This document shows, piece after piece, positions 3,441 through 45,296 of a DNA stretch of 50,705 bases (its first letter is position 1; every line of letters starts with the position of its first letter). Origin of the DNA: a virus; the IMG/VR virus record IMGVR_UViG_3300025769_000013, positions 1 through 50,705 of that record. One strand, written 5' to 3'. A model generated the notes under the pieces. The model ran no database searches and had not been told where the DNA came from. It saw nothing but the letters and a program-made list of their open reading frames with translations. The translations under genes and the position numbers were made by a program.

Positions 3441-3443
3441 GTG

Positions 3444-4206: not shown

Positions 4207-4514
4207 CCACCCCATCGCTAAGTTCAATTCTGGAGACCATCAGTGACAGGTATGGTGTGCCGGGTGATGTAATCCAGGGCAGGAGTCGCCCGGAGATAGT
4301 AGTGGAGGCTCGTCATGCGTTTTGTTATTTAGCGACGATGCGTGGTTATACGCAGGAGGGGATTGGTGCGTTTATTAATCGTGACCATACGACGATCAGC
4401 ATGGCAATTCGCAGTTTCCGTGACCGGATCGATTGTGATGTGAAGGCTCGCGGGGTGTTTGCGAGAGCAGAGGAAGGATTAAAGGAGGTAGAAGCATTGG
4501 TTGTTTCAGCATAG
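4203..4514 (+). CDS. Stand-alone DnaA domain IV-like DNA-binding protein
   Basis: The 103-residue protein matches the C-terminal DnaA-box-binding domain. Visible parts are ILETISDRYGV, RSRPEIVVEARHAFCYLA, and the signature loop NRDHTTISMAI corresponding to the GRDHTTV helix that reads the DnaA box. The AAA+ and DnaB-contact domains of DnaA are absent. Such a protein could compete with host DnaA, mark a phage origin or act as a regulator. It starts at GTG 4203, overlapping the previous stop. Confidence 0.8.
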   Translation: MTTPSLSSILETISDRYGVPGDVIQGRSRPEIVVEARHAFCYLATMRGYTQEGIGAFINRDHTTISMAIRSFRDRIDCDVKARGVFARAEEGLKEVEALVVSA

Positions 4515-4574
4515 GTGAGGCGACCCCGTTGCTGGTTTATGCGTATGACGAGGAGTAAACACACAGAAAGAACT

Positions 4575-22817: not shown

Positions 22818-23714
22818 ATGCTACGCAGATTTGGAGATGTTAAGACCGAACTCGCCAGTGTTGCTGCTGAGACCGGATTCACTGTGGATGATACCCGACT
22901 GAAAAGCCTGGTCGGTCTCGCCCAGGAACGTCTCCTGATGGAAGGCAATTGGCCCCACATTCTGGAGCGACGAATGTCAGTCCAGGTGCATGACGGGATC
23001 CTCGTTCTTCCAGATGAATTTGAAACAATTTACAGTGTCTGTCGATCTGACGTTGGATCTCTGAAGATCACGGACTCCTGGTTCACTCTACTACCTCAGA
23101 ACCAGATTCCAGGTAATTACCCCACTCTTACCTGTGAAGATCGTGGAGAGACGGCGGTGTATCGTCACCCTCAGGGAATGACGATAAAGGCATACTCCGA
23201 AGAGTCCTCCGCGATCACAATTTATGCAGACCACGAATCGGTGAGCATCACGCCGACCTCCCGTGATGCGGAACCGACCCCAACTGCGAAAAAATACTAC
23301 GACATTCAGCGGGTAGAACGTGCTGCAGCAGGAAAGCCATTTGAACTCGTTTATGAGGACGAGGATGGGGTTGAATACTTCGGCGGTAGATTCTCCGGTT
23401 ATTGGCCATCTGCATCACTCAGGGCGTATCAGGTCGGTGCCAGTGACTTTGACGAGGTGGTCAATGTGGTGGCCCGGAGACGGATTATCCCGATCACGGA
23501 TGACACCACTCCGATGATCATTACAAATGTCCCAGCTCTTCGATTGATGCTCATGGCACTCACTAAAGAGAATGCAGGAATGATCGACGAAGCTGATGCT
23601 CTCTTGGCTCGGTCTGTCGCGGCTCTTAAGAGTGAGAACGAGAGATATCATCCACATAACCAACAACCCCGAATTGATATTGTCTCTGGATTTGGAGACA
23701 TTCAGCATTTGTAA
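22818..23714 (+). CDS. Tail tubular protein A-like adaptor
   Basis: The 298-residue protein begins with a helical segment (GDVKTELASVAAETGFTVDD, LAQERLLMEGNWPHILERRM) of the type seen in T7 gp11 and related head-tail adaptors. A beta-rich middle follows, with a helical C-terminus (LRLMLMALTKENAGMIDEAD). It is coupled by TAATG to the nozzle-like gene, the conserved order of short-tailed phages. It would join the portal ring to the tail nozzle. Confidence 0.7.
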   Translation: MLRRFGDVKTELASVAAETGFTVDDTRLKSLVGLAQERLLMEGNWPHILERRMSVQVHDGILVLPDEFETIYSVCRSDVGSLKITDSWFTLLPQNQIPGNYPTLTCEDRGETAVYRHPQGMTIKAYSEESSAITIYADHESVSITPTSRDAEPTPTAKKYYDIQRVERAAAGKPFELVYEDEDGVEYFGGRFSGYWPSASLRAYQVGASDFDEVVNVVARRRIIPITDDTTPMIITNVPALRLMLMALTKENAGMIDEADALLARSVAALKSENERYHPHNQQPRIDIVSGFGDIQHL

Positions 23715-26164
23715 TGGCGGTAGCACGGAGAGATTGGATTACAGATCGATTCGCACTGGCAGTCGGAGGTCACAATAGTGGCGATGACGCAGAGTTCATC
23801 GACCCGACCCAGTATGCCGATTCCAAGAACATCACAAATCGTGGTGGCCGGGTGCGTAGTCGTCCACGTTGGGTGAAGAAGGCAGACCTTCCTACCGATC
23901 CCGAGAATGAACTCTACTTCCAGGGGATCACCCACTTCAAATCCCAGGACCAAATCATTCTGAGGGCAAATGGTAGACTCTACAGGCTGGACGAGGCAAC
24001 TGGAGCATCCGTGGATCCACCTTGTGTATTTAATGAGGTCTACAAGCCCAATGTGACCGTCTGGGAGGTTCCTACCGCCCAAGTGGATACAATTACGGTA
24101 ACTGGGTCATCGGGATCAATTACAGTCAATATTGTGGCGACTGTAGAAGGTACTGTTATTGATGAGTCAGTGACAGTGGCGTGGAACACTAATTTGGATA
24201 CGACTTGCACTGATATCGAAACTGCGATCAATGGTGCGGTTTCAGGAATTGAAGATATTGCAGATGCTGTGTCTACTGGAGGAGGAACAGGCGAGATTGT
24301 TCTGACATCGGAAGTCGCTGGGCGAGGGTTTATCACGACTGTATCAAACACTCTTACCGCGACAGTAGAGACCACGACTCCGAACTACCATTTCTATCTA
24401 CCAAATGAAGCAATCCCTCAGGGTGACACTGCTGGACGTCCAGGTTCTCCTGTTTCTGCGGTTGCTCAAGTGGATACCATCACCATTTCTGACGGGACTA
24501 ATTCCCCAGGTGTAAACACGATTGATGTCTATATTGATGGAAACCAGATTACAGCAGGTGCCGTGGATTGGGTGACTAGTCATGCAACAACCGCAACAAA
24601 TTTAGCAACCGCAATCAATGGGGATCCAACCCTAAGCGGAATCGTGACTGCAGACGCATCAGCGGGTGATGGCACATTGACCCTCACTGGAGATTTGAAA
24701 GGCGACAAGTTCTCAGCCTACACCATCAATGGTGGAGATGTCGAATCGAGCATCACAACGACCACCGCACGATCTTTTCCCGAAAACTCAATTTACTACG
24801 ACTGGGATATTCCCGGACTCTTCATTTACAATGGAAGTAGTTGGGTAGACTTTACCGAAGCACTCACCATTGACATCCCCTTGGATGCAAATCCATTGAG
24901 GGAGAAAACCTGGTTTGAAGACGTTGCTGGGACACTGGTGATTCAGGATGGCCAGAAGCAACCAATCCAGTATGATGGCAGTACATGGGATAACCTCACC
25001 ACGGTGCCTGTAGGGACCGCTATGCGATTTGCCAATGGTCGCCTTCACCTTGTGTCCTCTGGGCAACGCAAGACCCTCCAGGTCGGGGATATCCTCCAGA
25101 ACGGCGATGCCAGTACCGCATTAAAATTTACCGAAACGGGTTATCTTCTCGGAGGTGGCTCTTTCGCATTCCCTGATGAAGTGACTGCACTGCATGAGAT
25201 TCCGATCATGGATACAGCTTCTGGCCAGGGGTCAATGGTCATTGGTACAAGTCGGAACACATATTCTCTACGCACCGAAATTACAGACCGTGACCTCTGG
25301 TCTACTGTTGACGGTTTCCTGAGACCGATACTCCCAGGGATTGGAGTAGCAGGTCCGGAATCGTTCGCGACAGTCAATAACGACCTCTATTTCCGGTCAA
25401 CCAATGGTCTGCGATCACTGAGAATGGCAGTGGGTGAACAGCAGTCTCCCGGTTACGGTGGGCTCCACCAGGAAATCCCAGAGAGATTCTATGCGTGGGG
25501 ATTACAACATAATTCTTCAGTACATGCTGGAGATCGATTTATTACCTTGGTCAATCCAAGGGTCCAGAATCACCAGTGGTTGTACGAAGGTGCCGTATCC
25601 ATCAACTTTGAATCGATCAACCGACTGGGTCAGAAGTCAGGAATGTCATTTGATGGGTTCTGGGACTTGCCCGATGACCACTATTTTTATCAAATCTTCG
25701 ATGTGGATGGCATTGCTTACTCCGTAGTAAGCACTCCGACTGGAGATGAACTCTGGGAACTCCAGAAAGATGAAGGCACGTTTGATGGAGAGACTGGACT
25801 AGAGCAGATTCTGGTCACTCGTGAAATGAATGCTGGAGATCCTATGGGATTGAAAACTTTGGGGCGTTTGGATGCTTGGCTTTCCCAAATCCAGGAGAAT
25901 CTGTCACTGGTTTTTGAATATCGTCTCGGCGGAGAACAAGATTGGCGGACCTGGCACACCCTTGCAGTCACCTACTCTGGTAACCAGGATTATCTATCCC
26001 GGTACACCCTACCGACACCTCCAGGAGATAAAATTTCCGGCTACAGCTTCCAGTTTCGTGTAACATGGACGGGACGCTGTAAGATCGACTACCTGCAAGC
26101 CTATTTGAAACCACTGGCAGAGAGCGTCTTTGCCGAACAACTCACTCCAATCACTCTACCGTAA
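23714..26164 (+). CDS. Tail tubular protein B-like nozzle
   Basis: The 816-residue protein has the beta-propeller-like features of podovirus nozzle proteins. It has an early region listing the nodes (DPTQYADSKNITNRGGRVRS), FQGITHFKSQDQIILRANGR, and a later FRSTNGLRSLRMAVGEQQSP. Two similar inserted modules of about 95 residues at roughly 115-215 and 250-345 share VDTITV..GS/GT and TDIETAINGAV-type sequences, probably duplicated Ig-like or fibre domains. It forms the tail tip with the adaptor. Confidence 0.72.
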   Translation: MAVARRDWITDRFALAVGGHNSGDDAEFIDPTQYADSKNITNRGGRVRSRPRWVKKADLPTDPENELYFQGITHFKSQDQIILRANGRLYRLDEATGASVDPPCVFNEVYKPNVTVWEVPTAQVDTITVTGSSGSITVNIVATVEGTVIDESVTVAWNTNLDTTCTDIETAINGAVSGIEDIADAVSTGGGTGEIVLTSEVAGRGFITTVSNTLTATVETTTPNYHFYLPNEAIPQGDTAGRPGSPVSAVAQVDTITISDGTNSPGVNTIDVYIDGNQITAGAVDWVTSHATTATNLATAINGDPTLSGIVTADASAGDGTLTLTGDLKGDKFSAYTINGGDVESSITTTTARSFPENSIYYDWDIPGLFIYNGSSWVDFTEALTIDIPLDANPLREKTWFEDVAGTLVIQDGQKQPIQYDGSTWDNLTTVPVGTAMRFANGRLHLVSSGQRKTLQVGDILQNGDASTALKFTETGYLLGGGSFAFPDEVTALHEIPIMDTASGQGSMVIGTSRNTYSLRTEITDRDLWSTVDGFLRPILPGIGVAGPESFATVNNDLYFRSTNGLRSLRMAVGEQQSPGYGGLHQEIPERFYAWGLQHNSSVHAGDRFITLVNPRVQNHQWLYEGAVSINFESINRLGQKSGMSFDGFWDLPDDHYFYQIFDVDGIAYSVVSTPTGDELWELQKDEGTFDGETGLEQILVTREMNAGDPMGLKTLGRLDAWLSQIQENLSLVFEYRLGGEQDWRTWHTLAVTYSGNQDYLSRYTLPTPPGDKISGYSFQFRVTWTGRCKIDYLQAYLKPLAESVFAEQLTPITLP

Positions 26165-26165
26165 A

Positions 26166-26966
26166 ATGCCCAAGTACGCACTCACACAAAAAGGGACACC
26201 ATCCAGCGATCCAGCACCTACTGCATTGGATGCGTTGCTTACTCAGATCCGCACTTACACGGAGATCGATACCAATTCCGATGACCCAGATAGTGATACT
26301 GTAAGAAGTATCCTGGTCCAGCCTACGGCACCGACTGGAGCAAGTGCGAATGACCTCTGGGTGAAGACACACTCTATTTCAGGAAGACCACTGGGCCTTT
26401 ATACTTACACGGGGACGGAATGGAGAATATTTAGTCAAACGGATTCTGGAACGACAAATAATCGACCAAGTGATGCCGTTGCAGGTGAAGTCTACTGGGA
26501 TACAGATATTAACGTCATGCTAGTGTACACAGGATCGGCGTGGGTTACTCAGGATGGATCTCCAGGAGACATGAAGTATGTGTACATCGATTCTGGCACA
26601 TACGCAGGGTTTGCTACAGGTAAAGCTCGTGCGGAGACCCTGAATCCAGGATGGGAGTATGCGACTGATGCAGAGGGGGCGGTACTGGTTGGTACAGTAA
26701 GTGGAGATTCCGATTCTGATTATCTCACTGCTGGTAATACCTTCGGGTCTCGTGACCATACATTAACAGAAGCAGAGATGCCTGCCCACACTCATGATTT
26801 TGCAATTGATGGAAATAATGGATCTGCGGATGGAACTGTCATTAAATCCTCATCTACTACTCTAAATCCTCATACAAAAACAACCGACTCTACCGGAAGC
26901 GGAGATGCTCACGAAAATCGACAACCATCCTACACCGCATTCTTGATGCGAAAGTTGGGATACTAA
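26166..26966 (+). CDS. Tail fibre or collar protein
   Basis: The 266-residue product ends with LTEAEMPAHTHDF and GDAHENRQPSYTAFLMRKLG, the hallmark of phage tail-collar/microcystin-dependent-protein-like tips. There AHTH and the Asn-Gln-Pro-x-x segment close a trimeric domain. Residues 65-130 hold NDLWVKT and GSAWVTQDGSPG repeats of a fibre shaft. It is likely a receptor-binding or tip protein. ATG 26166 is chosen, just after the nozzle stop, rather than an upstream start inside it. Confidence 0.8.
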   Translation: MPKYALTQKGTPSSDPAPTALDALLTQIRTYTEIDTNSDDPDSDTVRSILVQPTAPTGASANDLWVKTHSISGRPLGLYTYTGTEWRIFSQTDSGTTNNRPSDAVAGEVYWDTDINVMLVYTGSAWVTQDGSPGDMKYVYIDSGTYAGFATGKARAETLNPGWEYATDAEGAVLVGTVSGDSDSDYLTAGNTFGSRDHTLTEAEMPAHTHDFAIDGNNGSADGTVIKSSSTTLNPHTKTTDSTGSGDAHENRQPSYTAFLMRKLGY

Positions 26967-26980
26967 GGAGAGACTGACCA

Positions 26981-27757
26981 ATGGGATTATTTAGTAAACC
27001 AAAAGTACAATACGCTGGAGAAGTCGATGTAGGCAACAGCATGGGCGAGACCTTCTCGCTCAACAATCGATATTTCCAGGATGCCCAGAACTACACCAGT
27101 CGGGTAAATGAGGCAGCACAACAGCAAGCCATAGATCTACTAGAGCAGGCGATGCCTGGAATCTCGAAAGTCCGTGGCCGATTGATGCAGCAACTCAATG
27201 AGGACCTAAACACAAAAGGTCTGCCAAAGGAGGTGGAAGAAAACCTTGCCCGGAAAGCTGCAGAAATGGGAGTGACCCGTGGTACAGGCAATAGCGACTT
27301 TTCCAAATTCTCCGCTCTTCGTGACCTGGGGATTGAACACACAAAGATGGTCGAGTTCCGTAGACGTATGGCGATGTCCAGCATGCAACAACTCTTCCAG
27401 GCTACACCGAAGATCAACCCAATGTCTCCAGCCTCTATGCTCCTGACCCCAGGGACGACTCTACAGGTCCAAGGCCAAAACCTAGACCGCAGACAAGCCT
27501 TCCTTAACGCAAAGGCTCAAGCTGAAGCCCAACATAAAGCAGGAATCATGAACGCAATTGCAGGTGTGGCTGGATTCGCCCTCGGTGGCCCACTCGGGGG
27601 AATGCTCGGCAAGGGTCTAAAGTCGGGAGTTGGTAAGATATTTGGAGGCGGCGGAGGAACACCATCTGTCTCTCCCTCAGTCGGTCAAGGCACGGTAATG
27701 GCTCCCCCATCAGGCGGATGGAACCAAACTTTAGAGAACACCCTTTACGGACCTTAA
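26981..27757 (+). CDS. Putative internal virion or ejection protein
   Basis: The 258-residue protein is helical to about residue 185. A glycine-rich hydrophobic stretch follows (AIAGVAGFALGGPLGGMLGK) with a low-complexity Gly/Pro/Ser tail. Amphipathic, Gly-rich segments of this kind occur in ejected internal proteins of T7- and P22-like phages. Position before two more large helical genes supports this. AAGGAG precedes ATG 26981. Confidence 0.5.
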   Translation: MGLFSKPKVQYAGEVDVGNSMGETFSLNNRYFQDAQNYTSRVNEAAQQQAIDLLEQAMPGISKVRGRLMQQLNEDLNTKGLPKEVEENLARKAAEMGVTRGTGNSDFSKFSALRDLGIEHTKMVEFRRRMAMSSMQQLFQATPKINPMSPASMLLTPGTTLQVQGQNLDRRQAFLNAKAQAEAQHKAGIMNAIAGVAGFALGGPLGGMLGKGLKSGVGKIFGGGGGTPSVSPSVGQGTVMAPPSGGWNQTLENTLYGP

Positions 27758-27759
27758 TC

Positions 27760-29103
27760 ATGGCAGTTTACGCACAAGCACCAGACGCACAACCCAACCC
27801 GGTTGGCACATTCATTAATGCCTTCTCGACTGGGCGTAACCTATTCCAGCAGAAGCAACGTCAAGAGATGGAGATGCAACGTCTTCAGAGAGCGGAGGAA
27901 CGTGCAGTTCGACAAGAGGAAAGGCAGGCAAAGCTTTGGAGTATGCAGATGAACTCGAAAGAGTTGGAGGTCGAGGCATTGGGGCGTCAGGCTGAAGATG
28001 ATATCGCTCGGAGAGATCGTGCCAGTGGAGATTTACCAAGGGCTTTGCAGCAGTTTGAATTGATTGGATCACAGATAGATGCAATGGAGGCGGCGAATGA
28101 AGAGGATGTCCCTGGATATCGGAGTAAGATTGCGACCATGTATGCAAAGCTTGAAGCAATCAAAGGTCGATACAGTCATGTCCAGGGAGATGCTCGGTGG
28201 GCAACTCAATTTGATGATGCCTACTATCAGGTAACCAATAAGCTTTCTCAGAAAGCAGCACCGTTGGAGGCAGTTCTTCCTGGTGCATTCAATAAGTTCC
28301 GAGAAGAGTTTGCATCACTAAAGGGAATTACTGACCTGAATGAGTATGCAGCAAGAGCAGGTGATATTGAAAAACGGTACGCTTACTTTGCTTCAGATCC
28401 CGTCCGTGGCCAGATGTTTGAGTCGATGGTGGATAAAATGGATGAGAATATCAAATCCATGAGAGAGAACCAATTCAAAGCACAGAAAGAGCAGCAAGAG
28501 CTCGAAGGGCTCAAACACTCAAATCAAAAAAAGGAGTTAGAAGTTGAATCTGCGAAGAAGCAGAAGGTTACTGATAAGAACAATGCAGTTAAAAACCAAC
28601 AGAGGTTACTGCAAGAGCGAGATAAGATTAGGCGTTTACGGAATGATATCCAGAATGCTGATTTTGGTGTAGGCGGAACAGGTACTATTATAGAGGCACT
28701 TAAGACAGCTAAAAGGCTCGGCGGAAGAAGTGCTGGTGCATCAATTGCAGACGAAATTGTTTCCGGTGAGTGGTTAAAGAATGTATCTGCTCTAAAGGGT
28801 GCTTTGTCTGATAAAGAAGGTGCAAGACTCGCAATTGCTGGGTTAAAGAGAACTGATGATAAGGCAGTCTGGTTAAGGAAGCTGAATAACCTCATAGCTG
28901 CATTGGATACTGATCGAGCTTTACTAAGTGAACAGGGGATGTGGTATATCGACGAAAAAGGGAAACCTTTTTCATTATCTGAGGGCACTGAGCAGGAAGA
29001 GATCGGCGATAGTGATGTCAATGATCTGCTCGGAGGTGGAGAATATACACCGCCAGAGGAAGAGCCTGATTTCAGTATTTTTGAAGACCCAGAGGGAAAT
29101 TAA
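27760..29103 (+). CDS. Coiled-coil internal virion protein
   Basis: The 447-residue protein is largely alpha-helical, with strong coiled coils at about 25-80 and 245-300 (KEQQELEGLKHSNQKKELEV). A short acidic tail follows. The start ATG 27760 is two bases after the previous stop. With its neighbours it probably forms the internal core delivered with the genome. No enzyme motif is recognised. Confidence 0.55.
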   Translation: MAVYAQAPDAQPNPVGTFINAFSTGRNLFQQKQRQEMEMQRLQRAEERAVRQEERQAKLWSMQMNSKELEVEALGRQAEDDIARRDRASGDLPRALQQFELIGSQIDAMEAANEEDVPGYRSKIATMYAKLEAIKGRYSHVQGDARWATQFDDAYYQVTNKLSQKAAPLEAVLPGAFNKFREEFASLKGITDLNEYAARAGDIEKRYAYFASDPVRGQMFESMVDKMDENIKSMRENQFKAQKEQQELEGLKHSNQKKELEVESAKKQKVTDKNNAVKNQQRLLQERDKIRRLRNDIQNADFGVGGTGTIIEALKTAKRLGGRSAGASIADEIVSGEWLKNVSALKGALSDKEGARLAIAGLKRTDDKAVWLRKLNNLIAALDTDRALLSEQGMWYIDEKGKPFSLSEGTEQEEIGDSDVNDLLGGGEYTPPEEEPDFSIFEDPEGN

Positions 29104-29107
29104 AGCA

Positions 29108-32100
29108 ATGGGATACACAGACACAGAGAAGCAGGAGATTCTAGCAGGGGTTCCTGAGGATGTGAAAAACCGTGCAAGGCAAGGTGATCGTGATGCAATC
29201 GATTTGATTAAAGGGAAAATTTCGGAATGGAAGTCAGTGACGGAATTACCACAGACACAGACTCAAGCTCCAAAAACTCTATCAGATCGATCTCGTGTTA
29301 TTGATCTGGCCAATCAGGATAACTTTAACTGGGATGAGATCTCTGGTCTAATCGATTCTGGTAAGCTTACGGATGAAGTGGTGGAGTTTTTCGCCAGTGA
29401 AGGGTATGGATTGGAGCAGTCCCTTACTGGTGGTCGGATTATCAATATTGGAAAGAAGGGTAACTATATTTCCAGCCCACAAGGGCGGATGCTCAGTAAG
29501 CTGGGAGAGAGTATTTCTTCTGTTGTTACAATACCCTGGCGTGGCCTTGGAGATAATGATCCAACATCCATGTCTAAGGATGATTTCTACAGGTATCTAT
29601 TAAAGCAACCCAAAGATGATTGGGCTCGGACAGGAGTTGAGAAATTAATCCGGAAGCAACTTCAAGAACGGCAACAAGAGGAACAGAAGGCATATGCACT
29701 TCATGGAGAAGATGCGAATGTCGATATGCACGGAAAAGCCGGAGCTTTAAGCCAAAAGAACGAAATCCCAGCACCAACTCCACAGGATTGGTTCCCAGAA
29801 AAGTTTCTGAAATCAGAAGATGGATCATATTCTGCAAACAAGAGTGAATTAAAACGATACAAATCTGTAATCCTGGAGAATGATCCATATGCGGCATCGC
29901 AGGTGGAACAATTGACCGGACGGGCAGTTGCTGACTTTTATTATGCCAAGAAGGAGGAAGACTCCCAGATGCTCGAACGATTAAATCAGCTTCAAGCAGA
30001 AGGAAGGACGCATCTTCATGACCCTGAGGTTTATGATTGGTTTGTCCGCAGGGGTATGGAGAAGACTCAGGACATCACCTTGGGCCAAGCGATTGACGCT
30101 GGTTGGGATATATTAGGACAAGTTTGGCAAGGGTTGGTTGGCTCGGAAGATGGTTCTGGGATTATCAAGGAATTCGGAGATACAGTATTCAAAGACGATG
30201 CTGCTGAGTATCAAGAGTTTGATGAACTGGTTGGAGAGTCATTCCGGGCATTGGGTTCTGACTACCAACTCCTGAGTGAAAATGCAGGCGGATACTTCTT
30301 GGATCTTATTGAAAAGGCGGATGACAAGGATAGTCCTGAAGCTCAGGAGTTGTATCGAAAAGCGAAATCTGAGCGAAATCGTAAGTTCCAGCTCAGGGCA
30401 TTATCAAACCAAGCAGTTTACGCAAGGGCATCCCAGTCATTGGCATTGAGTCAGGGGAAGAATCCCCAGCAGATGCAGAAGAATATTCTAACTGGTACAT
30501 TTACTTTTGATCCGATGAACTTCGTTCCTATGGGAGGTGTATCAAAAAAAGGTGCAGAGGCGACTCTTAGGGCTGGAGTGAATACACTAAATGATGGTGC
30601 ATTGAAGACTGCGAAGATTGCTGCTGACGAAGCATCGAAAGCTATTTCAGATGCACAAAAGGTGTTGATCGATGCAAAGAAAGCGGGGGATGGTGCTGCG
30701 ATCCAATCTGCCAAAAAGACTTATGATGACGCTTTGAAGCAATACGATAATGCTGAGAAGGCGTTAAAGGAGGCATCGACTAAGGTTGATAATATCTACC
30801 AGGAGTTATTGGAAGCAGGCATGCCAAAACTTTCGGGAAAAGCACTGGAGATGATGGGAGCCGCCGGAGAGTGGATCATGAAGAAAGGCGATGAGGCTTT
30901 AGATAATATCGCAGTTAAGATCGCCCCAGGCATGGCAGATGACACAAGACGATTGCTTGAAGGCGGAGTAAAAGTCGGTGTTGCTGCTACGTTAGGAGGG
31001 GCAAGTCTCGGAACTGTAGGTGCAGTCGTCGGAGGCGTATTGTTAGGAAGTCCAGTAGCAAGAGCACTTGCAAGAGATATGCGGTTAATGGGATCACATA
31101 TTGCACTTGGAGCAAGACTTCAGCCTCTACACCGAGCATTGCAAGCGACCACTGATGCAGGAGGAAATGTAATTTCTCCTGCTTCCTTTGGAACAAGAGT
31201 AGCGGCAAGAGGGTACGAGGCGGCATTTCCCTTTGTAGATCCAGTCGCCAGACTCGGAAGTCGAGTTGTTAAAGGAGTTGCCTCCGTGCAAACGGCGGAG
31301 GCGATGGCAATCCAGTCCGCTATCGGTTATTTGGGATCAGGAGGCACTTGGCAAGGTGCAGTGACTGGAGCGACAATGGGTTTTGGCATGGCAGGGTCTT
31401 TTGGTGCTGCTGGAGCACTTACGCCTTTTGGAAGTCAGAAACAGGTCAATCAATTGGCAGCAACGAATGCTAGGCATTACCGTGATATGTTAAAAGGCAC
31501 TCCTACTGGCGACGAGTTTGCAAAGCTACCATTTGAGGATCAGAAAGCAATAGCATGGGCTATGGGCGGTTTCACAGATACCGCACTCAAGATTATCAAT
31601 GACCCAAATGCACCTGCTGGAGCGTATAACCCAGCAAGGAATGAGATCAACATCAATACAGGGCGAAGAGAGTGGACTAAGGAGTTTGCCAGAAATGTAG
31701 CGAAACATGAACACTCTCATTACATCGCAAGGCATGTTGGTGTCCGTGAGAAAATCCTGAAGACTTTGTTGGCGGATGACTTCTCTCTCCAGTCAGGAAT
31801 CTTTGCTAAGAAGGGGAAAGATGGTAAAGCACTGTATAAGCTAGACCGTGATACTATCCGGGAGATCATGCGTAAAAATACGCAAGGTAAGTCTGTCGAT
31901 GAGGTAATGCAGGAACTTGGATTGTCCAGGGAAGCTGTTGAGTCACTTGGTCAGGTGTTGACTGTCGGTGATCGTCGTAGAAATGACGTTTACATTGAAA
32001 CCACTGATGACTTTAAGGACATCACCAATACATATTTGTCAAAACTGGCGGCATCCAACCCCTTTGCCGCCATTGATTTAATCAACAAAGGTGAGAGGTA

Positions 32101-35100
32101 TGTACAGGAGTACATTGCTGAAGAGATTTTTGCAGAACAGGGGGCAGCAGAAATTGCTAACTACACTCCAGCTTATGCGAAAAGCTTTCGACGAGCTGCA
32201 TGGAGAAAAGATTTGGATGCAGCTCTAAGCAACCCCAGGTTCTCAGGCAGGAAAGCAAGTGTGCTGGGGAGAATTGGTGCATTATTTGGATCTGACCAAA
32301 AGATCAACTCTTCTATATTGGGTGCATTTGACTCCATTCCTGAGTTTAAGGAAATATTTGACGGATACAATCACTCCAGGTCAATGAACCGTGACATGCA
32401 ATTGGCCGAATCCAATGCAGACGGGTTAGCACCTTCGGAGATACTTGATCCAAGAGACTGGGATGCGTCAGTCAGCACTCCATCCACTGAGTCCTTGAAG
32501 GCATGGGTCGCCAACGGGATGCTGGATGTAGATCCAAAGACTGGAGTCCCTAAAGGTATTGAAGTTCAGGCAGATGGAAGCTGGAGAGTCCGAGATCCAA
32601 ACCTTATTCGTCAATCTGCGAAAAATGCCGATAAGGCAGCAAAGGAGTTTGGTAGTGAGATAAAGGATTGGCTCGAAGATAACACGCAGCCTCCGAAGTC
32701 TGCCCAAGAGATTAAAGACTCTATCGACAGTCAGGCTCCCCCTCGATCTCAGGCTGAAAAGGATGCTCTGGATGAAGTGAAGAAGAAGATTGATGGAGGG
32801 GTGAAGCAGGATATCGAGAAGGAGATCCGGGTTCAAAAGTCTCAGTCCGTCCAGGCAACCAAGGACTACCTTGATGATGTTAGTCAAATTATCGACGACA
32901 ACATGGCCGATGATGATGTCGTTGCTCCACGGACTACCATTGATGGCCGAACTATTATTGCAGGCAGATACCTTCCTGAAGACCTACTGACACACCTTGA
33001 AAAGTCTGGGAGGTTTAACCCTCATCAATTACAGAACCTCCGCAATTTGAACCAGTATTTGAAGGATGGACTACATGCCACTCCGATTACGGTGATGTAC
33101 CAATCCACGATGCGAGCTGGGAAAGCAAAGCCTATTGCTGCTGCGGAAAAGACTGTCTATGTAACTGGGTTTGAGGTTACTCAGCAAGGAAACTTTATTT
33201 ACCGCATTTGGAACATTGACAAAATCATGACCAATGGGGCTAAGAAGATGAACTCCAAGATTGGTAAACAGCTTTACAATGGTGATATTGGGCAGTTCAA
33301 TCAGGATGTCTACACTTACTTCAATAACTACGCAAAAGGACTTCCTGGAGCTACTGGATTGAGTGCGACCAAGCGAGATTTCATCCGCAAAGCCATTGGT
33401 CTTGCTGACCCTAACACATCCTCTAACTCTGGAAGGACTCCAAACCCATACGCTTGGAATGTCCAGCCGTTAAAAGACGCAAAGGATACAGCGTTAAACT
33501 CCTATAGACTTGATCGCACAAATTGGATTGACCTTGGGAACCCAAGGATGAAGAAACCGCTGGATGCTCCATTGACATCAAGGGAAGGACCAAATCCAGG
33601 TAGTTACCAGCGGATCAGGGAGAATTACCACCCTGGCGACATAGACTACCTTGACGCAGTGGAGTCTGGTGACATGGAGACTGCTCAGAAGATGGTGGAT
33701 GAGGCTGCGAAGAAGGCGGGATGGACTGTATTGGCATGGCATGGCACTACGCAGGGAGCGTTAAAAGGAAACAAGTTTGATCCCAGTAAACAGCAAAGAG
33801 GCTTCATTACTTCCGCAGGGTATTTCACAACAGATAAGCGAGCGGCAGCAGGGTACGCAACCTCTGGAGGGGCGGGACATTACCCAAAAGGCAGCAAAGA
33901 AAGGAAGGCTCTCGAAGGAGGGGAAAGGCCGTACGACCCTTCACTATATAGAGTTTACTTAAAAGGCGACTGGTGGAAGGGTGATATTGATACAGATGCT
34001 CTAGTTGAGGCAGTGAACACTGTAAACAACAAAGGTATTGCCGATGAGTTTGATTTAGAGTGGACCTCGACATGGGATGATAAGGAAGGGTATGCCAGTC
34101 GTACTGACAGTTACCCAGACGTAGTCTTTGATACTCCAGAGGAATGGTTAAGGGACTTTGTCGAGAAAGGTGAGTTTGATTCGTACGTAGGAAACGATAC
34201 GGATGCTATTGGTTCTGAGTCACCTATTGCATTTGTCTTTTCTAATTGGGAAGTTGGTAAAGAATATCTGAATATAACAAAAAAAGATGGAGTTACTTAC
34301 TTTGATAAGGAAACAACCGAAGTTGATGCGTTTTCCGATAATGCAACTACTTATGTCCCCACGAATCCCAACCAGATCAAATCCGCCGACCCCGTGACTT
34401 ATGATGATGCTGGTAGCGTCATTCCGTTGAGTGAGCGATTCAACCCCAAGAGCGACGATATCCGCTATCACCCAGGCACTGACTCCGACTACCTAAAAGC
34501 AGTGGAGTCTGGAGACACTGAGACTGCTCAGAAGATGGTAGACGAGGCTGCGAAGGCTGCGGGGTATAAAGTTGTTTACCATGGGACGACCAAAAAGGGA
34601 TATACCAATATATGGAAGTCAGGAAAACTGAAACCAGATGCAGAACCAGCAGTTTATGTCACCACCGATTCAGAAGGTGGTGGTTATGGAGATGGCACTG
34701 TTCTCCGAATTGGAATTAAAGAAGGTCGATTGGAAATCGATGATGAATTCCCAGGCGGAAGAGAAGATTATCGTGTGGAGGTGGGTTACCAGGGAGAGAT
34801 TCAAATCAAATCCGCCGACCCCGTCACCTACGATGATGCTGGTAACGTCATCCCGCTCTCCGAGCGATTCAACCCGAAGAGTGACGATATTCGCTTCTTC
34901 CCTGGACTCGATGACGAATCCACCAAACGTGCAGGCTTCAACTTCACTGCAGTCTCCGATCGTATTCCTGTCATCCGTGACCTCTACGCGAAGAAAGACT
35001 GGGAAGGACTCAGGGAGATCAATCGATCACTTATCTCCCACGCCCTGGCTGACATCCCCAGAAGTAAACTCAAAGTAACCACAGAGGATATCCATGGTGT

Positions 35101-37933
35101 CTGGATGGGCGAAACTGAGCCCACCATCCGCGTGGAAGTGGAAGCTGCAGATGACGCCACTCTTGATCAGGCTCGTCGCCGCATCAACGCCCTGGGTGCC
35201 ATCTTCGATCAGGATGAGGTCCACGAATTTCAGAGGGCGAGCATGGGTGACAATGATCAATTTGGGGTAACTCCAGGGGCAGTAGATCAATTCCAACCCT
35301 TCGCCCGTATCTTTGTAGAGGATCCATCCAATCCAGGAAGAAAACTTGACTGGAGCGAACTGGAACCTTATCGTGCTCAAACTGATCTTCTAGGAGCCTC
35401 ATTTGATGGAAACGAAATTTTTGTTTACGGAGTTGATGGTAACGAGAAGGTATTTCTCCAAAATGTAAAAAAACTTGAGCAACTGATCCAAAATGGGAAC
35501 CTTAGCCGAATTCAAAAAACTTCTGAATACGGAGCAATCCGTCTTAGGAGGGCCAGCAGGGATATGGGTAGACCCGAAACCCGAGGATACCAAGAAAGTG
35601 CATTTTCGGATGGTCCAGTATCCCAAGAAGGACAACCAGGCGATAAAGGACTCCGCTCCGACCTCGCCCTCCGAGTCTTAAAGTTTACAGGGGGACGCAT
35701 CCTCTCACCCAAAGACGCCAAGCGATCCCTCTTCGTAGGGAAAGATCTCACTCCCGAGCAGGTCGAGCTCCAGATCAAGATCGCTGACCACTACGAACAG
35801 GCTCCAGTCAATGACATGGACCGCCCGATTGTGCAACGTGCTTACCGAGCTCTCCAGAAAGAACTCGTGGATCAATATAAGGCAATCGTCGAAGGGATGG
35901 AGATCATTGGAGTCCCCTGGAGACGCAAAAAGGACGGAGAGTGGATTGAGGGTGATATCTACCCAAGTTCCAAGGAAGCAGTCCGAGATATCCGCCAGAA
36001 CAATCGGATGGAATACCTCCTAACCGACCCCGATGCATTTGGACCCCAGGGAGAAGACTTCTCAGGACACCCACTCCTGGAAGACTCTGGAATTGAAGTC
36101 ATGCTCCAGGATGCGGAAACCGGAGAGCTCCGGCCCTACTCCGCCAATTACAACGATATTCTCCGAGTCGTCCATGACGTCATCGCTCACGGACTTTATA
36201 CTGACCAATTTGGCCCTATCGGAGAAGAGGGAGCCTACCGCACTCACGCCGTTGTCACTCAGGATCCATTTGCCATTTGGACATTGGCTAACGAGACACG
36301 GAATCAAAACTCCTGGGTCAACTACGGTCCCCAGGTACGTGGCAAAGATGGCCAGCTTATCAAGAAAGGTGAACCCGGGTTCCGGTCGATCCCTGAACGC
36401 GAATTTGCTGAACAGAAAGCCATTCTCCTTCCAGTCGATGACCTCCTGACCGGAGTCCCTGAAATCGATCAGAAAGTTGAATCCCTCAGGGCAATGCTTA
36501 CTCCAGAGGAAGCAATGGGCAGTTTGGCTGAATCAAGTCAGGTCCGATACTACCCTGGCACTGATGATGATGCTATTAGGACTTCAAGTAAGAATATTCT
36601 TACGAATCAATCCTCAAAAGGAACAGTAAATGAAATTGGAGAGGCAGCTACAATCTTCAAGGAGTCCTTCATTGAGCAATTTGGTGAAGTAATGACTGCA
36701 AAAGATATGGGGGATGATCAAATAAAGTGGCTGGCAGATCAATTAGTGCAGGAAGCTTTAGTAGAATTCGATAAAGTTGATAATGCAGTAGATTGGTACA
36801 CAACTGCTGTAGAAGGTATGCTTAAGAAAGCTGAAACTTTGTTTCCAGAAATCTCTGATCGTGGAATTGATTATCATACATTCCTAGCTGCAGTTGCGAT
36901 CACATCCCAGAATCTTGCGGTACGCGACAACCTTGCATATGCAGTCGGTCAGTACGAGTACCGCAAGAAGAATGGTGTCTTTAATTACAAGGAAGATGTT
37001 GGAAGTAAGGCTGAAGCGATTCGTGGAAATTTAAAACTTTTCGATAGACTTATCAAAGAGCTAGGAGAAGAGGATTATATTCAATTTACCCAGAGAGATT
37101 TCACAATAAAAGAGTTATCAAGCGACCTATCAGAAGTCTTGGGCAAGAAAGTAAATATAGCAGGCTATCAATCAGACTCAGTAAAAGGATCTGCGGCATT
37201 CGGTCCAAAGATTGGCCAGGGATTTCTCCAGAATCTCTTGGGCAACTATGACCCTGTAACTGTAGATCTCTGGTTGCGAAGAACATTTGGTCGCTTAACT
37301 GGCGATGCCATTCGGAAAGAATTAACTGTCCAGGATATTGGAAGGTTAGTCTTTGCGTTTAAAAATAGAAGTAATCGAGGTAAGTTTAAATTACCGGAAG
37401 ACATCAATCTGCCAGATTACCTGAAAGGACTTCGACTTGAGGGCTCAGTCACTAAAAGAGGTTCTCAGCATAAGATCACTGGATCCGCATTTAGTCGTCT
37501 ATTTAACCCCAAAACAAAAGAAGGTGCTGCAAGACAAGAAGAACTTCGCCAATTAGGAAAAGTATTAAATTCTGCATGGGAAAGCACGTATAAACGGGAG
37601 GTTCCAAAGCTTGGAAAAGAAGAAGTAGGCAAACGAAAGCCATATTGGGCTTATATTGGAAGCACCTTGAACGGGAAATTTAAACCAGTTGACGCCCCAT
37701 CAAACTTGGAACGAAAGGTTATTACACAAGCGTTTGAGATTGTTCGGAAGCGTCTCAAAGAGGAACATGATCTTGACTTCACTAACGCAGATCTTCAAGC
37801 TCTCCTTTGGTATCCAGAAAAGGATATATGGGGTCACCTCACTGGCGAAAGTGCCGACTCCTTAAAGGAAGACTATTCAACTGCAATGGAGGCAATTCTC
37901 AATGAGCGAAACAGAGCCACAGGAACTGAATGA
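29108..37933 (+). CDS. Giant polyvalent protein (2,941 residues) with HExxH and two ADP-ribosyltransferase-like modules
   Basis: This gene is 17% of the genome. N-terminal 490 residues are unassigned. About 495-567 is coiled coil and 620-650 is a Gly-rich hydrophobic segment. H867-E868-H869-S870-H871 is a zincin HExxH. Two ART-PolyVal-like modules follow: one with GDMETAQKMVDEAAKKAG and WHGT (H1545), one with the same helix and YHGT (H1825). Each is closed by QIKSADPVTYDDAG and a DDIR motif. Then come VHDVIAHG (H2356) with ETRNQNSW (E2396), and a C-terminal domain with KIGQGFLQNLLGNYDPVTVD. It is probably injected to modify host targets. Confidence 0.85.
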   Translation: MGYTDTEKQEILAGVPEDVKNRARQGDRDAIDLIKGKISEWKSVTELPQTQTQAPKTLSDRSRVIDLANQDNFNWDEISGLIDSGKLTDEVVEFFASEGYGLEQSLTGGRIINIGKKGNYISSPQGRMLSKLGESISSVVTIPWRGLGDNDPTSMSKDDFYRYLLKQPKDDWARTGVEKLIRKQLQERQQEEQKAYALHGEDANVDMHGKAGALSQKNEIPAPTPQDWFPEKFLKSEDGSYSANKSELKRYKSVILENDPYAASQVEQLTGRAVADFYYAKKEEDSQMLERLNQLQAEGRTHLHDPEVYDWFVRRGMEKTQDITLGQAIDAGWDILGQVWQGLVGSEDGSGIIKEFGDTVFKDDAAEYQEFDELVGESFRALGSDYQLLSENAGGYFLDLIEKADDKDSPEAQELYRKAKSERNRKFQLRALSNQAVYARASQSLALSQGKNPQQMQKNILTGTFTFDPMNFVPMGGVSKKGAEATLRAGVNTLNDGALKTAKIAADEASKAISDAQKVLIDAKKAGDGAAIQSAKKTYDDALKQYDNAEKALKEASTKVDNIYQELLEAGMPKLSGKALEMMGAAGEWIMKKGDEALDNIAVKIAPGMADDTRRLLEGGVKVGVAATLGGASLGTVGAVVGGVLLGSPVARALARDMRLMGSHIALGARLQPLHRALQATTDAGGNVISPASFGTRVAARGYEAAFPFVDPVARLGSRVVKGVASVQTAEAMAIQSAIGYLGSGGTWQGAVTGATMGFGMAGSFGAAGALTPFGSQKQVNQLAATNARHYRDMLKGTPTGDEFAKLPFEDQKAIAWAMGGFTDTALKIINDPNAPAGAYNPARNEININTGRREWTKEFARNVAKHEHSHYIARHVGVREKILKTLLADDFSLQSGIFAKKGKDGKALYKLDRDTIREIMRKNTQGKSVDEVMQELGLSREAVESLGQVLTVGDRRRNDVYIETTDDFKDITNTYLSKLAASNPFAAIDLINKGERYVQEYIAEEIFAEQGAAEIANYTPAYAKSFRRAAWRKDLDAALSNPRFSGRKASVLGRIGALFGSDQKINSSILGAFDSIPEFKEIFDGYNHSRSMNRDMQLAESNADGLAPSEILDPRDWDASVSTPSTESLKAWVANGMLDVDPKTGVPKGIEVQADGSWRVRDPNLIRQSAKNADKAAKEFGSEIKDWLEDNTQPPKSAQEIKDSIDSQAPPRSQAEKDALDEVKKKIDGGVKQDIEKEIRVQKSQSVQATKDYLDDVSQIIDDNMADDDVVAPRTTIDGRTIIAGRYLPEDLLTHLEKSGRFNPHQLQNLRNLNQYLKDGLHATPITVMYQSTMRAGKAKPIAAAEKTVYVTGFEVTQQGNFIYRIWNIDKIMTNGAKKMNSKIGKQLYNGDIGQFNQDVYTYFNNYAKGLPGATGLSATKRDFIRKAIGLADPNTSSNSGRTPNPYAWNVQPLKDAKDTALNSYRLDRTNWIDLGNPRMKKPLDAPLTSREGPNPGSYQRIRENYHPGDIDYLDAVESGDMETAQKMVDEAAKKAGWTVLAWHGTTQGALKGNKFDPSKQQRGFITSAGYFTTDKRAAAGYATSGGAGHYPKGSKERKALEGGERPYDPSLYRVYLKGDWWKGDIDTDALVEAVNTVNNKGIADEFDLEWTSTWDDKEGYASRTDSYPDVVFDTPEEWLRDFVEKGEFDSYVGNDTDAIGSESPIAFVFSNWEVGKEYLNITKKDGVTYFDKETTEVDAFSDNATTYVPTNPNQIKSADPVTYDDAGSVIPLSERFNPKSDDIRYHPGTDSDYLKAVESGDTETAQKMVDEAAKAAGYKVVYHGTTKKGYTNIWKSGKLKPDAEPAVYVTTDSEGGGYGDGTVLRIGIKEGRLEIDDEFPGGREDYRVEVGYQGEIQIKSADPVTYDDAGNVIPLSERFNPKSDDIRFFPGLDDESTKRAGFNFTAVSDRIPVIRDLYAKKDWEGLREINRSLISHALADIPRSKLKVTTEDIHGVWMGETEPTIRVEVEAADDATLDQARRRINALGAIFDQDEVHEFQRASMGDNDQFGVTPGAVDQFQPFARIFVEDPSNPGRKLDWSELEPYRAQTDLLGASFDGNEIFVYGVDGNEKVFLQNVKKLEQLIQNGNLSRIQKTSEYGAIRLRRASRDMGRPETRGYQESAFSDGPVSQEGQPGDKGLRSDLALRVLKFTGGRILSPKDAKRSLFVGKDLTPEQVELQIKIADHYEQAPVNDMDRPIVQRAYRALQKELVDQYKAIVEGMEIIGVPWRRKKDGEWIEGDIYPSSKEAVRDIRQNNRMEYLLTDPDAFGPQGEDFSGHPLLEDSGIEVMLQDAETGELRPYSANYNDILRVVHDVIAHGLYTDQFGPIGEEGAYRTHAVVTQDPFAIWTLANETRNQNSWVNYGPQVRGKDGQLIKKGEPGFRSIPEREFAEQKAILLPVDDLLTGVPEIDQKVESLRAMLTPEEAMGSLAESSQVRYYPGTDDDAIRTSSKNILTNQSSKGTVNEIGEAATIFKESFIEQFGEVMTAKDMGDDQIKWLADQLVQEALVEFDKVDNAVDWYTTAVEGMLKKAETLFPEISDRGIDYHTFLAAVAITSQNLAVRDNLAYAVGQYEYRKKNGVFNYKEDVGSKAEAIRGNLKLFDRLIKELGEEDYIQFTQRDFTIKELSSDLSEVLGKKVNIAGYQSDSVKGSAAFGPKIGQGFLQNLLGNYDPVTVDLWLRRTFGRLTGDAIRKELTVQDIGRLVFAFKNRSNRGKFKLPEDINLPDYLKGLRLEGSVTKRGSQHKITGSAFSRLFNPKTKEGAARQEELRQLGKVLNSAWESTYKREVPKLGKEEVGKRKPYWAYIGSTLNGKFKPVDAPSNLERKVITQAFEIVRKRLKEEHDLDFTNADLQALLWYPEKDIWGHLTGESADSLKEDYSTAMEAILNERNRATGTE
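33644..33724 (+). repeat. ART module entry repeat, copy 1
   Basis: This stretch encodes DYLDAVESGDMETAQKMVDE and matches 34487-34567 with only scattered substitutions. It marks the start of the first ADP-ribosyltransferase-like module. Confidence 0.8.
34376..34463 (+). repeat. Module-end repeat, copy 1
   Basis: This stretch encodes IKSADPVTYDDAG followed by VIPLSERFNPKSDDIR, and matches 34805-34892 closely, with mostly synonymous differences. It closes the first ART-like module. Confidence 0.8.
34487..34567 (+). repeat. ART module entry repeat, copy 2
   Basis: It encodes DYLKAVESGDTETAQKMVDE and is the second copy of 33644-33724, opening the shorter second ART-like module. Confidence 0.8.
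34805..34892 (+). repeat. Module-end repeat, copy 2
   Basis: It is the second copy of 34376-34463 and closes the second ART-like module. Together the four repeats show that the two modules arose by duplication or recombination within the gene. Confidence 0.8.
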
Positions 37934-39468: not shown

Positions 39469-40518
39469 ATGACCAAAAAAATAAAAATTTACAGACTCCT
39501 TGATCGCTCGAAACAAAAACTTGGCAAGAAATGTTTCGGAGTTCGGGTCAAAGTGGATGGGGCAAAGCCATTCGCCAAATTCTTTTACACACAACTAGAA
39601 AGAGAAACGTGGGTTGATGAATGGAAGATTGAACGCGAAGAAGGCGTCTTTGAAGTTGTATCAAGCAAAGGCAATACAACCACACAAAGTCGTTCGCTCC
39701 ACTGGGCTATTGATGAGTATTTGTCCTATGGAGAGAAAAAAGGCTGGAGGAGTCACACGATTCGCACCAGAAAGCATCGTTTGGGGGAATTAGGAAAGTT
39801 CTTTGGCGATGTAGGGATGAAGACCATTGAGCGGAAAGATGTCATCAAATTCATTGAGAAGTCAGCAGCCACCAATGTTCTCCGTAAGGCCTGGTGCAGT
39901 GACACAGTCTCCTTCTTTAATTGGTGTGGAAATGAAGACCAGGGGCGGACTTGGTTACCACCATACAAGTTTTCCAAGCTTCAATGGACCCGACTCGCCG
40001 AGGATGAGACTGGAGTTGGGATACTATATCCTGATGAAGCCGAGGATATACTAAATGGCATTTTACCAAAATACCGTGCAGGGATGGCGTTGGCTCTATT
40101 TGCCGGAATTCGCCCAATGGGGGAACTGGATCGTTTACGCTGGGATGATATTCACTTTCGCAGGCAACGTATCATTATTGAAGGGAAAGTATCAAAGACT
40201 CGGAGACGCCGGGTCCTATCAGACCTTCCTGAAAATCTATGGTCTTGGCTTGAAGCCTATAAAAAAGAAAAGGGTCCAGTGATCCATAGTTATTCCGGTT
40301 TCACCCAGGCCCGATACCGGGCTTGTAAGCGTCTCGGTATTAAATATCCACCAGATGGAGCCCGACACTCCTTTGCGAGTTATGGATACTGGCGTGGTGA
40401 AGAATGGTGCCGGAGGACGATGGGGCATACTGCGACCTCCGATGTCTTTCACCGGGTCTACGTGGATGCAGGTCCTAGTCAGGCTGAGTCAGAGGAATAC
40501 TTTGGTATTCTGCCTTAG
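39469..40518 (+). CDS. int: Tyrosine integrase
   Basis: The 349-residue protein has an N-terminal arm-binding-like part, a core-binding SAM-like domain (about 75-165) and a catalytic domain. Arg215 lies in FAGIRPMGELDRLRWDD; a candidate Lys is in the GKVSKTRRRRV hairpin. ARHSFASY carries Arg299, with Asp instead of the usual first His of HxxR. MGHTATSD provides His320, and VYVD the nucleophile Tyr331. It recombines attP with the host tRNA site. Its 3' end overlaps the convergent gene 40475-40885 by 44 bases. Confidence 0.93.
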   Translation: MTKKIKIYRLLDRSKQKLGKKCFGVRVKVDGAKPFAKFFYTQLERETWVDEWKIEREEGVFEVVSSKGNTTTQSRSLHWAIDEYLSYGEKKGWRSHTIRTRKHRLGELGKFFGDVGMKTIERKDVIKFIEKSAATNVLRKAWCSDTVSFFNWCGNEDQGRTWLPPYKFSKLQWTRLAEDETGVGILYPDEAEDILNGILPKYRAGMALALFAGIRPMGELDRLRWDDIHFRRQRIIIEGKVSKTRRRRVLSDLPENLWSWLEAYKKEKGPVIHSYSGFTQARYRACKRLGIKYPPDGARHSFASYGYWRGEEWCRRTMGHTATSDVFHRVYVDAGPSQAESEEYFGILP

Positions 40519-41324: not shown

Positions 41325-41456
41325 TTATTTCGGATGTACGCTGGTCCAAACGCCAGTCTTGAGGTTAACGGTGATGTATCGATATCCACGTCTAACTGGA
41401 TGGCAGTGAGACTTCCTTCTGGGTTTTGGGATTCTAGGACGAGAGGATGCTTTCAT
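41325..41456 (-). CDS. Very small Arg-rich protein
   Basis: ATG 41456 overlaps the stop of the primase-helicase as ATGA and opens 43 codons to TAA 41327-41325. The product begins MKASSRPRIPKPRRKSHCHP and is strongly basic, ending GYRYITVNLKTGVWTSVHPK. The exact overlap and the gap it fills support a gene. A nucleic-acid-binding role is only suggested by charge. Confidence 0.6.
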   Translation of the reverse strand: MKASSRPRIPKPRRKSHCHPVRRGYRYITVNLKTGVWTSVHPK

Positions 41457-43270
41457 TTCTTTTTCTCTGGTGCTGGTGGTTGTTTACAAAGGTTCCAACA
41501 GACGCCCTTCTGGGCATGCTGGATGTAAATATGATTGGAAAGCTCGCCATCGACGTTCCGCATCCCTGCTTTGTTTCTACGCTTGCAGAGATCGAGTCGG
41601 AAGGTCCGTGGTTGGTCGTCTGGAGCTCGGACCTGACTCAGGTTGATCATCTCCCTACATGCATTCGGAATAATACTTGTGCCAAACCCTTGATAGGCCA
41701 GATCGGTGCCAGTGAGGGCATCCATCTTCCGGGAGTCTTTGACTGGTTTCCCTGTATGCTGGACTAGACCGATGATGGTGCCTGTATCCTTGGCAATAGG
41801 TAGGATCATTCTGGAAAGCCACTCGGTCATGTATTCCTGGTCAGAAAGATCACCACCGACATAATGCATTAGAGGATCGATCCAAAGAATGTCAGGCTCG
41901 TGTCGATCAATGGTGTACTCCAGAAGCTTGCCGAGATCCATCCCCACATGTTTCAGCACATTTCGAAAGATCAGCTTCTCCTGGAGCATTTCAATCTCAG
42001 GTCCACTCAATCCAATCCCCTCGGCTACACCTTGGAATTGTTCCGCTAAATCTCCATCATCATTTTCGTGTTGGATAATATAACTCTTGAGTGGATGGAT
42101 AGGCTTGATTCCAAAGAAGTCGCGGCCCAGACCCCAATCCATTACTGCCTGCATCAGTAAGGTGGACTTCCCTACCCCAGTAGGCCCCACGAATCCAAAA
42201 ACAGCACCTTTACAGAGCCAGCGGTTCCCAATGACATTATTAGGGTCATTTTGAACATCATACTTGATCAGGAAATCCGGCCCAAACTCTGGAGACTCTT
42301 CAGAAAGATCATTAAGTAGATCCCACTCATCATAATCACGGGGACCGAGTCCAAGGGCTAAAAGTTTTTGTTCCTGGTCTCCACGATTACATCCAGGCAA
42401 TCTGGAGAACCGGGAAGGGTTCTTGTTCTGCTCATCAATGACAAATCCATCCGGGAGTGCATCCCAGAGTTTCTGTCGGCGTTTATGGTACTGCTGTAGG
42501 TTGGCAGCACCAACATGGACCCAAGCGTGGATAGATTTTCCTCCAGAATCTATCAAGGCATGAACGGGAAGTTTGCTGGCTCTGATGATTTTTTCCTGCT
42601 CTTCTTTAGTCCCTTCATCTGACTCGATCAAAGTGTACCGATAATTTGTGACGTCATTATTGCCACCATGAGTCCCCCGCTCAATTGGGTTGATCCGAAT
42701 ATAGGTTCCGTGGGCGTTTCCCCCGAAGTAAGATTTTGGGTGCTGGTCTCCGTTTCGGATTCCCTCAAGCCAATGATCAACAGGGTAAATATTGGTACCT
42801 GCCCCTTTAGGTACTTCCTGGCCATCAATCAGTTCAGTGCATTCGATGGATACGATATCGCCTGGTTCAAAACAATAGGTTAGGAACCGTTCCGTGTCGT
42901 CAGGATATTCATCAGTATCGGGAATTGGTTTACGTAGTTTTCTGCGACCAACCAGACGAGATGTGCTTTCTGACCGAGCCTCCGCCTTACCCAATTCAGA
43001 ACGAAGGATTGTATTCGCCCGGTCAACCTCAGGTTTACAGGAGTTATGAAAACAGGTGATGGTTGGAGGTCTGCCATCGGCTAGGTGGACCATGGTATCT
43101 TTATCACTATTCTTTCCAGTGTGCAGATGTTGCCCTGGACATTTGCAGTATCCTGTCGTACCGCCGTCTTCCCATTCAATATGGCCGAGGACGTCCTGTG
43201 CAATCTGTCGATAGTCTACCGGGGTCGCCGATGGTTTTTCGGTTCCTTGTGCTGTTGCTGTTATGATCAT
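41453..43270 (-). CDS. Primase-polymerase (AEP-like) fused to RepA/DnaB-type helicase
   Basis: The 605-residue protein begins with a Zn-ribbon-like set (C42, C44, C73, C78 with nearby His). Then comes an archaeo-eukaryotic primase-like region: NYRYTLIESDEG (Asp218) and IDSGGKSIHAWV (242-251), with NPSRFSRLPG. The C-terminal RecA-like ATPase has Walker A GPTGVGKS (362-369) and Walker B ILWIDP (461-466). It would prime and unwind the phage genome. It is coupled to the SF2 helicase by ATGA. No DNA polymerase gene is present, so it is a likely key replication protein. Confidence 0.82.
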   Translation of the reverse strand: MIITATAQGTEKPSATPVDYRQIAQDVLGHIEWEDGGTTGYCKCPGQHLHTGKNSDKDTMVHLADGRPPTITCFHNSCKPEVDRANTILRSELGKAEARSESTSRLVGRRKLRKPIPDTDEYPDDTERFLTYCFEPGDIVSIECTELIDGQEVPKGAGTNIYPVDHWLEGIRNGDQHPKSYFGGNAHGTYIRINPIERGTHGGNNDVTNYRYTLIESDEGTKEEQEKIIRASKLPVHALIDSGGKSIHAWVHVGAANLQQYHKRRQKLWDALPDGFVIDEQNKNPSRFSRLPGCNRGDQEQKLLALGLGPRDYDEWDLLNDLSEESPEFGPDFLIKYDVQNDPNNVIGNRWLCKGAVFGFVGPTGVGKSTLLMQAVMDWGLGRDFFGIKPIHPLKSYIIQHENDDGDLAEQFQGVAEGIGLSGPEIEMLQEKLIFRNVLKHVGMDLGKLLEYTIDRHEPDILWIDPLMHYVGGDLSDQEYMTEWLSRMILPIAKDTGTIIGLVQHTGKPVKDSRKMDALTGTDLAYQGFGTSIIPNACREMINLSQVRAPDDQPRTFRLDLCKRRNKAGMRNVDGELSNHIYIQHAQKGVCWNLCKQPPAPEKKK

Positions 43271-45266: not shown

Positions 45267-45296
45267 AATAATGAGTTTTAGGGTTAGATTATTGAT

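Follow-up and report, generated by a model that had tools for sequence, protein, structure and literature searches.

Polyvalent proteins of phages, described by Iyer et al. in 2017 (PMC5512222), are very large proteins with many disparate domains, ADP-ribosyltransferase (ART) and zincin domains among them, that occur in late-gene contexts and are predicted to be delivered with DNA. Processing by their zincins has already been proposed, and about 36% of the proteins in that survey, made with another method and set than the present one, carried a zincin (PMC5512222). Among the giant or large zincin-domain proteins packaged in virions, DdrB of phage P1 is processed before packaging, whereas the virion RNA polymerase of N4 is packaged uncut (PMC5512222). 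The subject of this analysis is a 2,941-residue protein encoded by the virus record IMGVR_UViG_3300025769_000013, the whole of which (50,705 bases) was analysed and is referred to as the window. The protein shares all of these features, predicted delivery and predicted zincin processing included, and combines two ART modules, a zincin-like region, a VHD domain and a C-terminal domain in one chain encoded directly after a conserved late-type gene block. An earlier reading of the letters alone (the sequence-only reading) had called it polyvalent, and its size, mixed domains and place directly after syntenic genes of structural type support the name; by these features it belongs to the known class, and delivery into the host is predicted. 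It differs from N4 polymerase and DdrB in that no RNA polymerase or ParB domain was found in it, and from the polyvalent proteins of PMC5512222 in that short protein-specific peptides, called words here, mark all of its module boundaries. That paper describes no boundary peptide ("linker" occurs 0 times and "cleavage site" only in the title of a reference), nor was a description found in the literature, of which subscription papers lay mostly outside the search. With a probability of about 0.5, the words are processing sites in a polyvalent effector protein that consists of a constant trunk and exchangeable modules.

The same trunk is encoded by other viral contigs, of which L012 and L013 (IMGVR 3300025853_000159), together with L024 over its available part, are of one type and L014 of another; no phage record is similar to the window at the DNA level. 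Identity between the trunks of the window protein and its relatives is 61-63% across residues 1-1510 and ends there. The trunk is followed in the window by two ART modules (ART1 and ART2), a module with the VHD domain and the C-terminal domain; in L012 by a non-ART module of approximately 210 residues, one ART module (Pfam E 6.5e-12) and a C-terminal domain of the window type (62% identical); and in L014 by a 29-residue segment, an ART module (E 3e-7), a further ART-like module, judged by its tail, and a last, unassigned module that runs off the end of the contig. As judged from these alignments, modules have clearly been exchanged between relatives. The peptide [YF]xPG, usually preceded by IR or VR, stands at a module boundary in 11 of 11 occurrences in the window protein and two relatives, and for its longer form [RNH][YF]xPG shuffling gives an expectation of 0.06-0.09 per protein. 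The boundaries that bear it are trunk/ART, trunk/non-ART, non-ART/ART, ART/ART, ART/VHD module, VHD module/C-terminus and ART/C-terminus. The simpler account in which the word is merely the ART tail was rejected for this family, because the trunk, the VHD module and the non-ART module of L012 also end in it. Elsewhere in the window, no credible gene encodes the word, the one extra match being a 128-codon opposite-strand frame inside the terminase gene. A constant front with variable modules, a punctuation peptide at each boundary and the phage-wide distribution of the VHD domain are additions to the sequence-only reading.

Words of this kind are not confined to the window family. The ART tail QIKSADPVTYDD.GNVIPLSERFN...DIR[YF] is encoded by 225 viral-contig stretches, and the peptide that follows it varies by protein (YSLK, FSR, YMPAG, YARG, YSVG, YSDR, RNPP). 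Among 62 proteins, the two residues that follow a site outside the PLSER-type tail were shared with the tail of the same protein 22 times, compared to 5.0 +/- 2.7 in permutations. Many of these sites were variant ART tails, and the test was therefore rebuilt on junctions at which a non-ART module precedes the first ART module, with the peptide before that ART module scored against the protein's own ART-tail word. The score of 28 proteins for matching their own word was 339, compared to 165 +/- 20 in permutations; without the window family (27 unrelated giant proteins) it was 311 compared to 159 +/- 19.5 (z = 7.8), a value reached in 0 of 5,000 permutations. Controls shifted by -200 to +120 residues gave z of -0.1 to 2.0, and the control shifted by +200 residues, at which the next ART tail is often reached, gave z of 4.6. 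Thus, junction peptides match the tail word of their own protein and not the words of other proteins, as exemplified by FMPAG before and YMPAG after the ART module of L113, YSLK and FSLK in L159, YSDRD and YSNRD in L161, and LPP at both ends in L160. A stricter pattern, with [IV]R[YFW] required ahead of the first ART module, was found in just 2 of 26 cases, so the arginine belongs to the word only in ART tails.

The trunk contains a putative protease. The HExxH motif that had been reported at residues 867-871 is present there as HEHSH, and was compared by hhalign with a profile of zincins from unrelated polyvalent proteins (32 stretches), members of which have weak Pfam matches to putative metallopeptidase families such as DUF6782. 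The stretch with HExxH matched the profile with probabilities of 88.2 and 85.7, whereas no other trunk window of a sliding control exceeded 3.0, and it is the only match within residues 1-1541; the match places HExxH in a helix behind an edge strand. The conserved peptide YVQEYIAEEIFAEQG, in which EYIAEEIFAE occupies residues 1001-1010, is a candidate for the second zincin helix, of which a glutamate would be the third zinc ligand. The zincin assignment is supported by the profile-profile match with its control, and the fold could not be judged because the AlphaFold model of this region is too poor. The HExxH motif is present in 56 of the 60 giant proteins with the ART tails described above (shuffles: 2.2), a larger share than the approximately 36% with a zincin in the 2017 survey, which had another method and set. 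It is also present in 30 of the 42 giant proteins with a VHD domain.

In the proposed mechanism, this protein of a tailed phage is an effector that most probably travels in the virion and enters the host with the DNA. The family's own word, [YF]xPG, at every boundary from the end of the trunk of approximately 1,506 residues through the swappable effector modules would be a processing signal, and the predicted cutter is the zincin of the trunk or another phage protease, acting plausibly between R/N and Y/F. The predicted pieces, of about 165, 31, 16, 62 and 52 kDa, would be released during assembly or in the host, and incoming modules would be acceptable if they bear the word of the recipient. 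From the sequence we infer packaging, injection, zincin activity, cleavage together with its exact site, and the activity and targets of the ART modules; an internal core function combined with host takeover or anti-defence, as put forward in the sequence-only reading, comprises putative roles that are plausible from context. A recurrent boundary site and an in-chain protease motif, as in self-processing polyproteins, are both present, and the constant carrier, variable cargo, built-in protease motif and repeated boundary signal are a functional likeness to polymorphic toxins and viral polyproteins; the likeness is one of architecture alone, with no homology claimed and with cleavage of the window protein predicted. 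A wider proposal, that the giant polyvalent proteins of phages cut themselves as polyproteins, each lineage having a word that its own zincin reads and that mobile modules adopt from the recipient, is tentative and is held at somewhat less than even odds. The proposal of 2017 had no cut sites, and the words supply predicted sites, fragment sizes and mutants for the window protein and dozens of unrelated giant proteins, which can now be tested. They also suggest how giant, unannotated phage proteins can be parsed: the ART-tail word is read and the protein split at each copy, which exposes modules such as the VHD domain for folding and assay one by one.

The main rival to processing sites is that the words are seams, left where modules were duplicated or recombined in a short copied linker, the peptide itself having no function. 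Exchange of modules between relatives would be expected of such seams, and so would the 79% DNA identity of the two ART tails of the window over 108 bases. Identical codons were found at 126 of 259 matching word residues, compared to 86.7 expected from codon usage, so shared DNA ancestry explains part of the word pattern. On the other hand, different codons are used at about half of the matching residues, which implies that the peptide has been kept while the DNA drifted, and the word terminates the conserved trunk and non-ART modules as well. Processing sites are favoured because the peptide outlasts DNA identity and because of the HExxH motif in nearly all giant proteins with such tails; seams are considered rather unlikely. 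Several points weigh against processing sites: the reading rests on computation from sequence, with cleavage predicted; the junction pattern was defined after part of the data had been viewed; the excess of identical codons was just mentioned; the AlphaFold model of residues 780-1510, built from three sequences, has a predicted local distance difference test score (pLDDT) of 44 and no usable fold; L154, L128, L134 and L178 have ART-tail words and no HExxH in the available sequence; and N4 polymerase, zincin included, is packaged uncut.

That N4 polymerase functions uncut (PMC5512222) would also suit words that are structural linkers in one working chain, such as turns or binding motifs for packing or for unfolding during ejection, and words rich in P-G and S are turn-like; a generic turn would need no protein-specific sequence, and such linkers are improbable as the explanation. 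Head-maturation-type proteases process other virion proteins, and the window has a weak PHROG match to a head-maturation protease at 1633-2529 (E 3.5e-5), which could be a separate protease that cuts at the words in place of the trunk zincin. A head protease that acts at the word should also cut scaffold or capsid there; the word is absent from the other credible genes of the window, and a role of such a protease at the words is considered very improbable.

As for the effector modules, 29 of the 30 members of the ART alignment match Pfam family ART-PolyVal (PF18760), with a best E of 2.8e-27. ART1 is similar to L123 over residues 1-277 of the module (E 2e-28) and ART2 to L146 (E 2e-26), in each case along the full length, and ART1 itself scores 20.3-28.2 bits against PF18760, under the gathering cut-off of 31.2. 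Like members of the family, both modules align across the HGT, YFT and QIKSA motifs; unlike members, ART1 lacks the usual acidic residue at the third active-site position. Of the H-Y-D-type active site, H and Y are kept in both modules, and the third position is T in ART1 and ambiguous in ART2, so their catalytic competence is uncertain. The ART profile has a weak resemblance to PARP-type and other ADP-ribosylating folds of solved structure (E about 0.01). By alignment, both modules are relatives of ART-PolyVal. The limits of 1507-1929 given for them by the sequence-only reading agree with the boundaries found here, and the duplication that it described holds for the type of module and a 34-residue tail and not for the sequence throughout, ART1 having 280 residues and ART2 143.

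The domain with VHDVIAHG and ETRNQNSW that had been noticed is likewise present, with VHDVIAH at 2355 and ETRNQNSW at 2396, approximately 40 residues between them. Its relatives are encoded by at least 519 viral-contig stretches, and on this evidence the domain is widespread in phages. The conserved positions (N-D, R, H-D-xxx-H, F-G, G-E-E, H and E-T-R-x-Q-N-S-W-x-N) look like an enzyme site. A model of the domain (pLDDT 79.6) had 18 phage matches in BFVD with E below 1e-3, among which are short relatives in Mycobacterium phage Spud (433 residues) and Gordonia phage Skog (291 residues), and had no convincing relative in PDB by Foldseek or VIA-align, the VIA rows falling mostly on residues 1-55 of the model, which lie outside the conserved core. 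An aromatic amino acid hydroxylase fold, with HxxxxH and Glu, is possible from the similar motif spacing and was not listed for the core in the PDB fold search; with no convincing relative in that search, and VIA rows mostly off the core, the hydroxylase idea is unsupported. Because of the 29 ART-PolyVal matches, the number of VHD-domain stretches and the confinement of the zincin match to the HExxH region, the features of the sequence-only reading are not due to chance.

The C-terminal domain is also as described, with KIGQGF at 2701, and gave a sub-threshold match to DUF7178 only in searches of Pfam and PDB. It is shared, with about 30% identity, by podovirus-like giant proteins annotated "crystallin beta/gamma motif" (ctQRb9, ctEw122 and Limnohabitans phage DC33), and ctQRb9 also shares the VHD domain. 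These proteins take the same place in gene order, after a lysozyme-type gene, and differ from the window protein in having an unrelated trunk, another domain order and no [IV]R[YF]xPG words. Limnohabitans phage DC33 (PQ492659.1, L005) is filed under Inoviridae; its genome is 39 kb, with a gene order and giant gene like those of podovirus-type ctQRb9, and the taxonomy line looks wrong.

Table. Positions of features in the window and in the 2,941-residue protein
Feature	Residues	Window position	Strand	Remark
Gene for polyvalent protein, 326 kDa	1-2941	29108..37933, stop codon included	+	translation
Trunk	1-1506	29108..33625	+	61-63% identical in relatives whose modules differ
Only strongly hydrophobic stretch	621-658	30968..31081	+	
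Zincin-like core	836-912	31613..31843	+	profile match; edge strand AGAYNPARNEININ, HEHSH at 31706-31720
Conserved YVQEYIAEEIFAEQG	999-1013	32102..32146	+	invariant in three relatives
Punctuation word 1, NYHPG	1506-1510	33623..33637	+	trunk end
ART1	1511-1785	33638..34462	+	HGT at 1545, YFTTD at 1572
Punctuation word 2, RYHPG	1786-1790	34463..34477	+	
ART2	1791-1928	34478..34891	+	HGT at 1825, VYVTTD at 1849
Punctuation word 3, RFFPG	1929-1933	34892..34906	+	
VHD-domain module	1934-2479	34907..36544	+	
VHD domain	about 2205-2450	35720..36457	+	
Punctuation word 4, RYYPG	2480-2484	36545..36559	+	
C-terminal module, KIGQGFLQNLLGN...TVDLWLRR	2485-2941	36560..37930	+	common to podovirus-like giants
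Five syntenic genes (298, 816, 278, 258 and 461 residues)		22818..29103	+	directly upstream of giant gene

The intact reading frame that had been reported holds up: positions 29108-37930 comprise 2,941 codons with no internal stop, followed by a stop codon at 37931-37933. The frame is already open from an upstream GTG at 28928; two relatives begin at the equivalent of M1 (MGYT/MGFT), and the ATG start is therefore right. A second assembly (IMGVR 3300006802_015151), 99.98% identical across 18.2 kb, confirms most of the gene, the frame being open over the part that it contains.

The five-gene block upstream of the giant gene also precedes the trunk in L013, L014 and L024. One of its genes has weak PHROG matches to tail proteins, and terminase and portal-like genes lie further upstream. 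The 461-residue gene that adjoins the giant gene (27718-29103) encodes a charged, coiled-coil-like protein and diverges faster than its neighbours (33-34% identity between relatives compared to about 59-80%), a pattern that might be that of a partner or co-injected protein. The 816-residue gene is whole in the window and L024 and is split into two frames of 400 and 419 codons in L013 (about 2307-4766), possibly by sequencing error or because the gene is broken. A 908-residue gene at 9089-11815 has PHROG matches to terminase large subunit over residues 73-423 only, and also to helicase/primase families; its nearest relative in phage records, with 37% identity, is in ctsTn925, where it is annotated as a restriction protein beside a separate terminase gene. 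Neither the trunk nor the 816-residue neighbour led to a provirus or host in scans of the genome-contig collection. At 39469-40518 and 41453-46382 lie integrase, primase, helicase, SSB-like and Sak4-like genes, which suggest that the phage is possibly temperate and equipped for its own replication and annealing.
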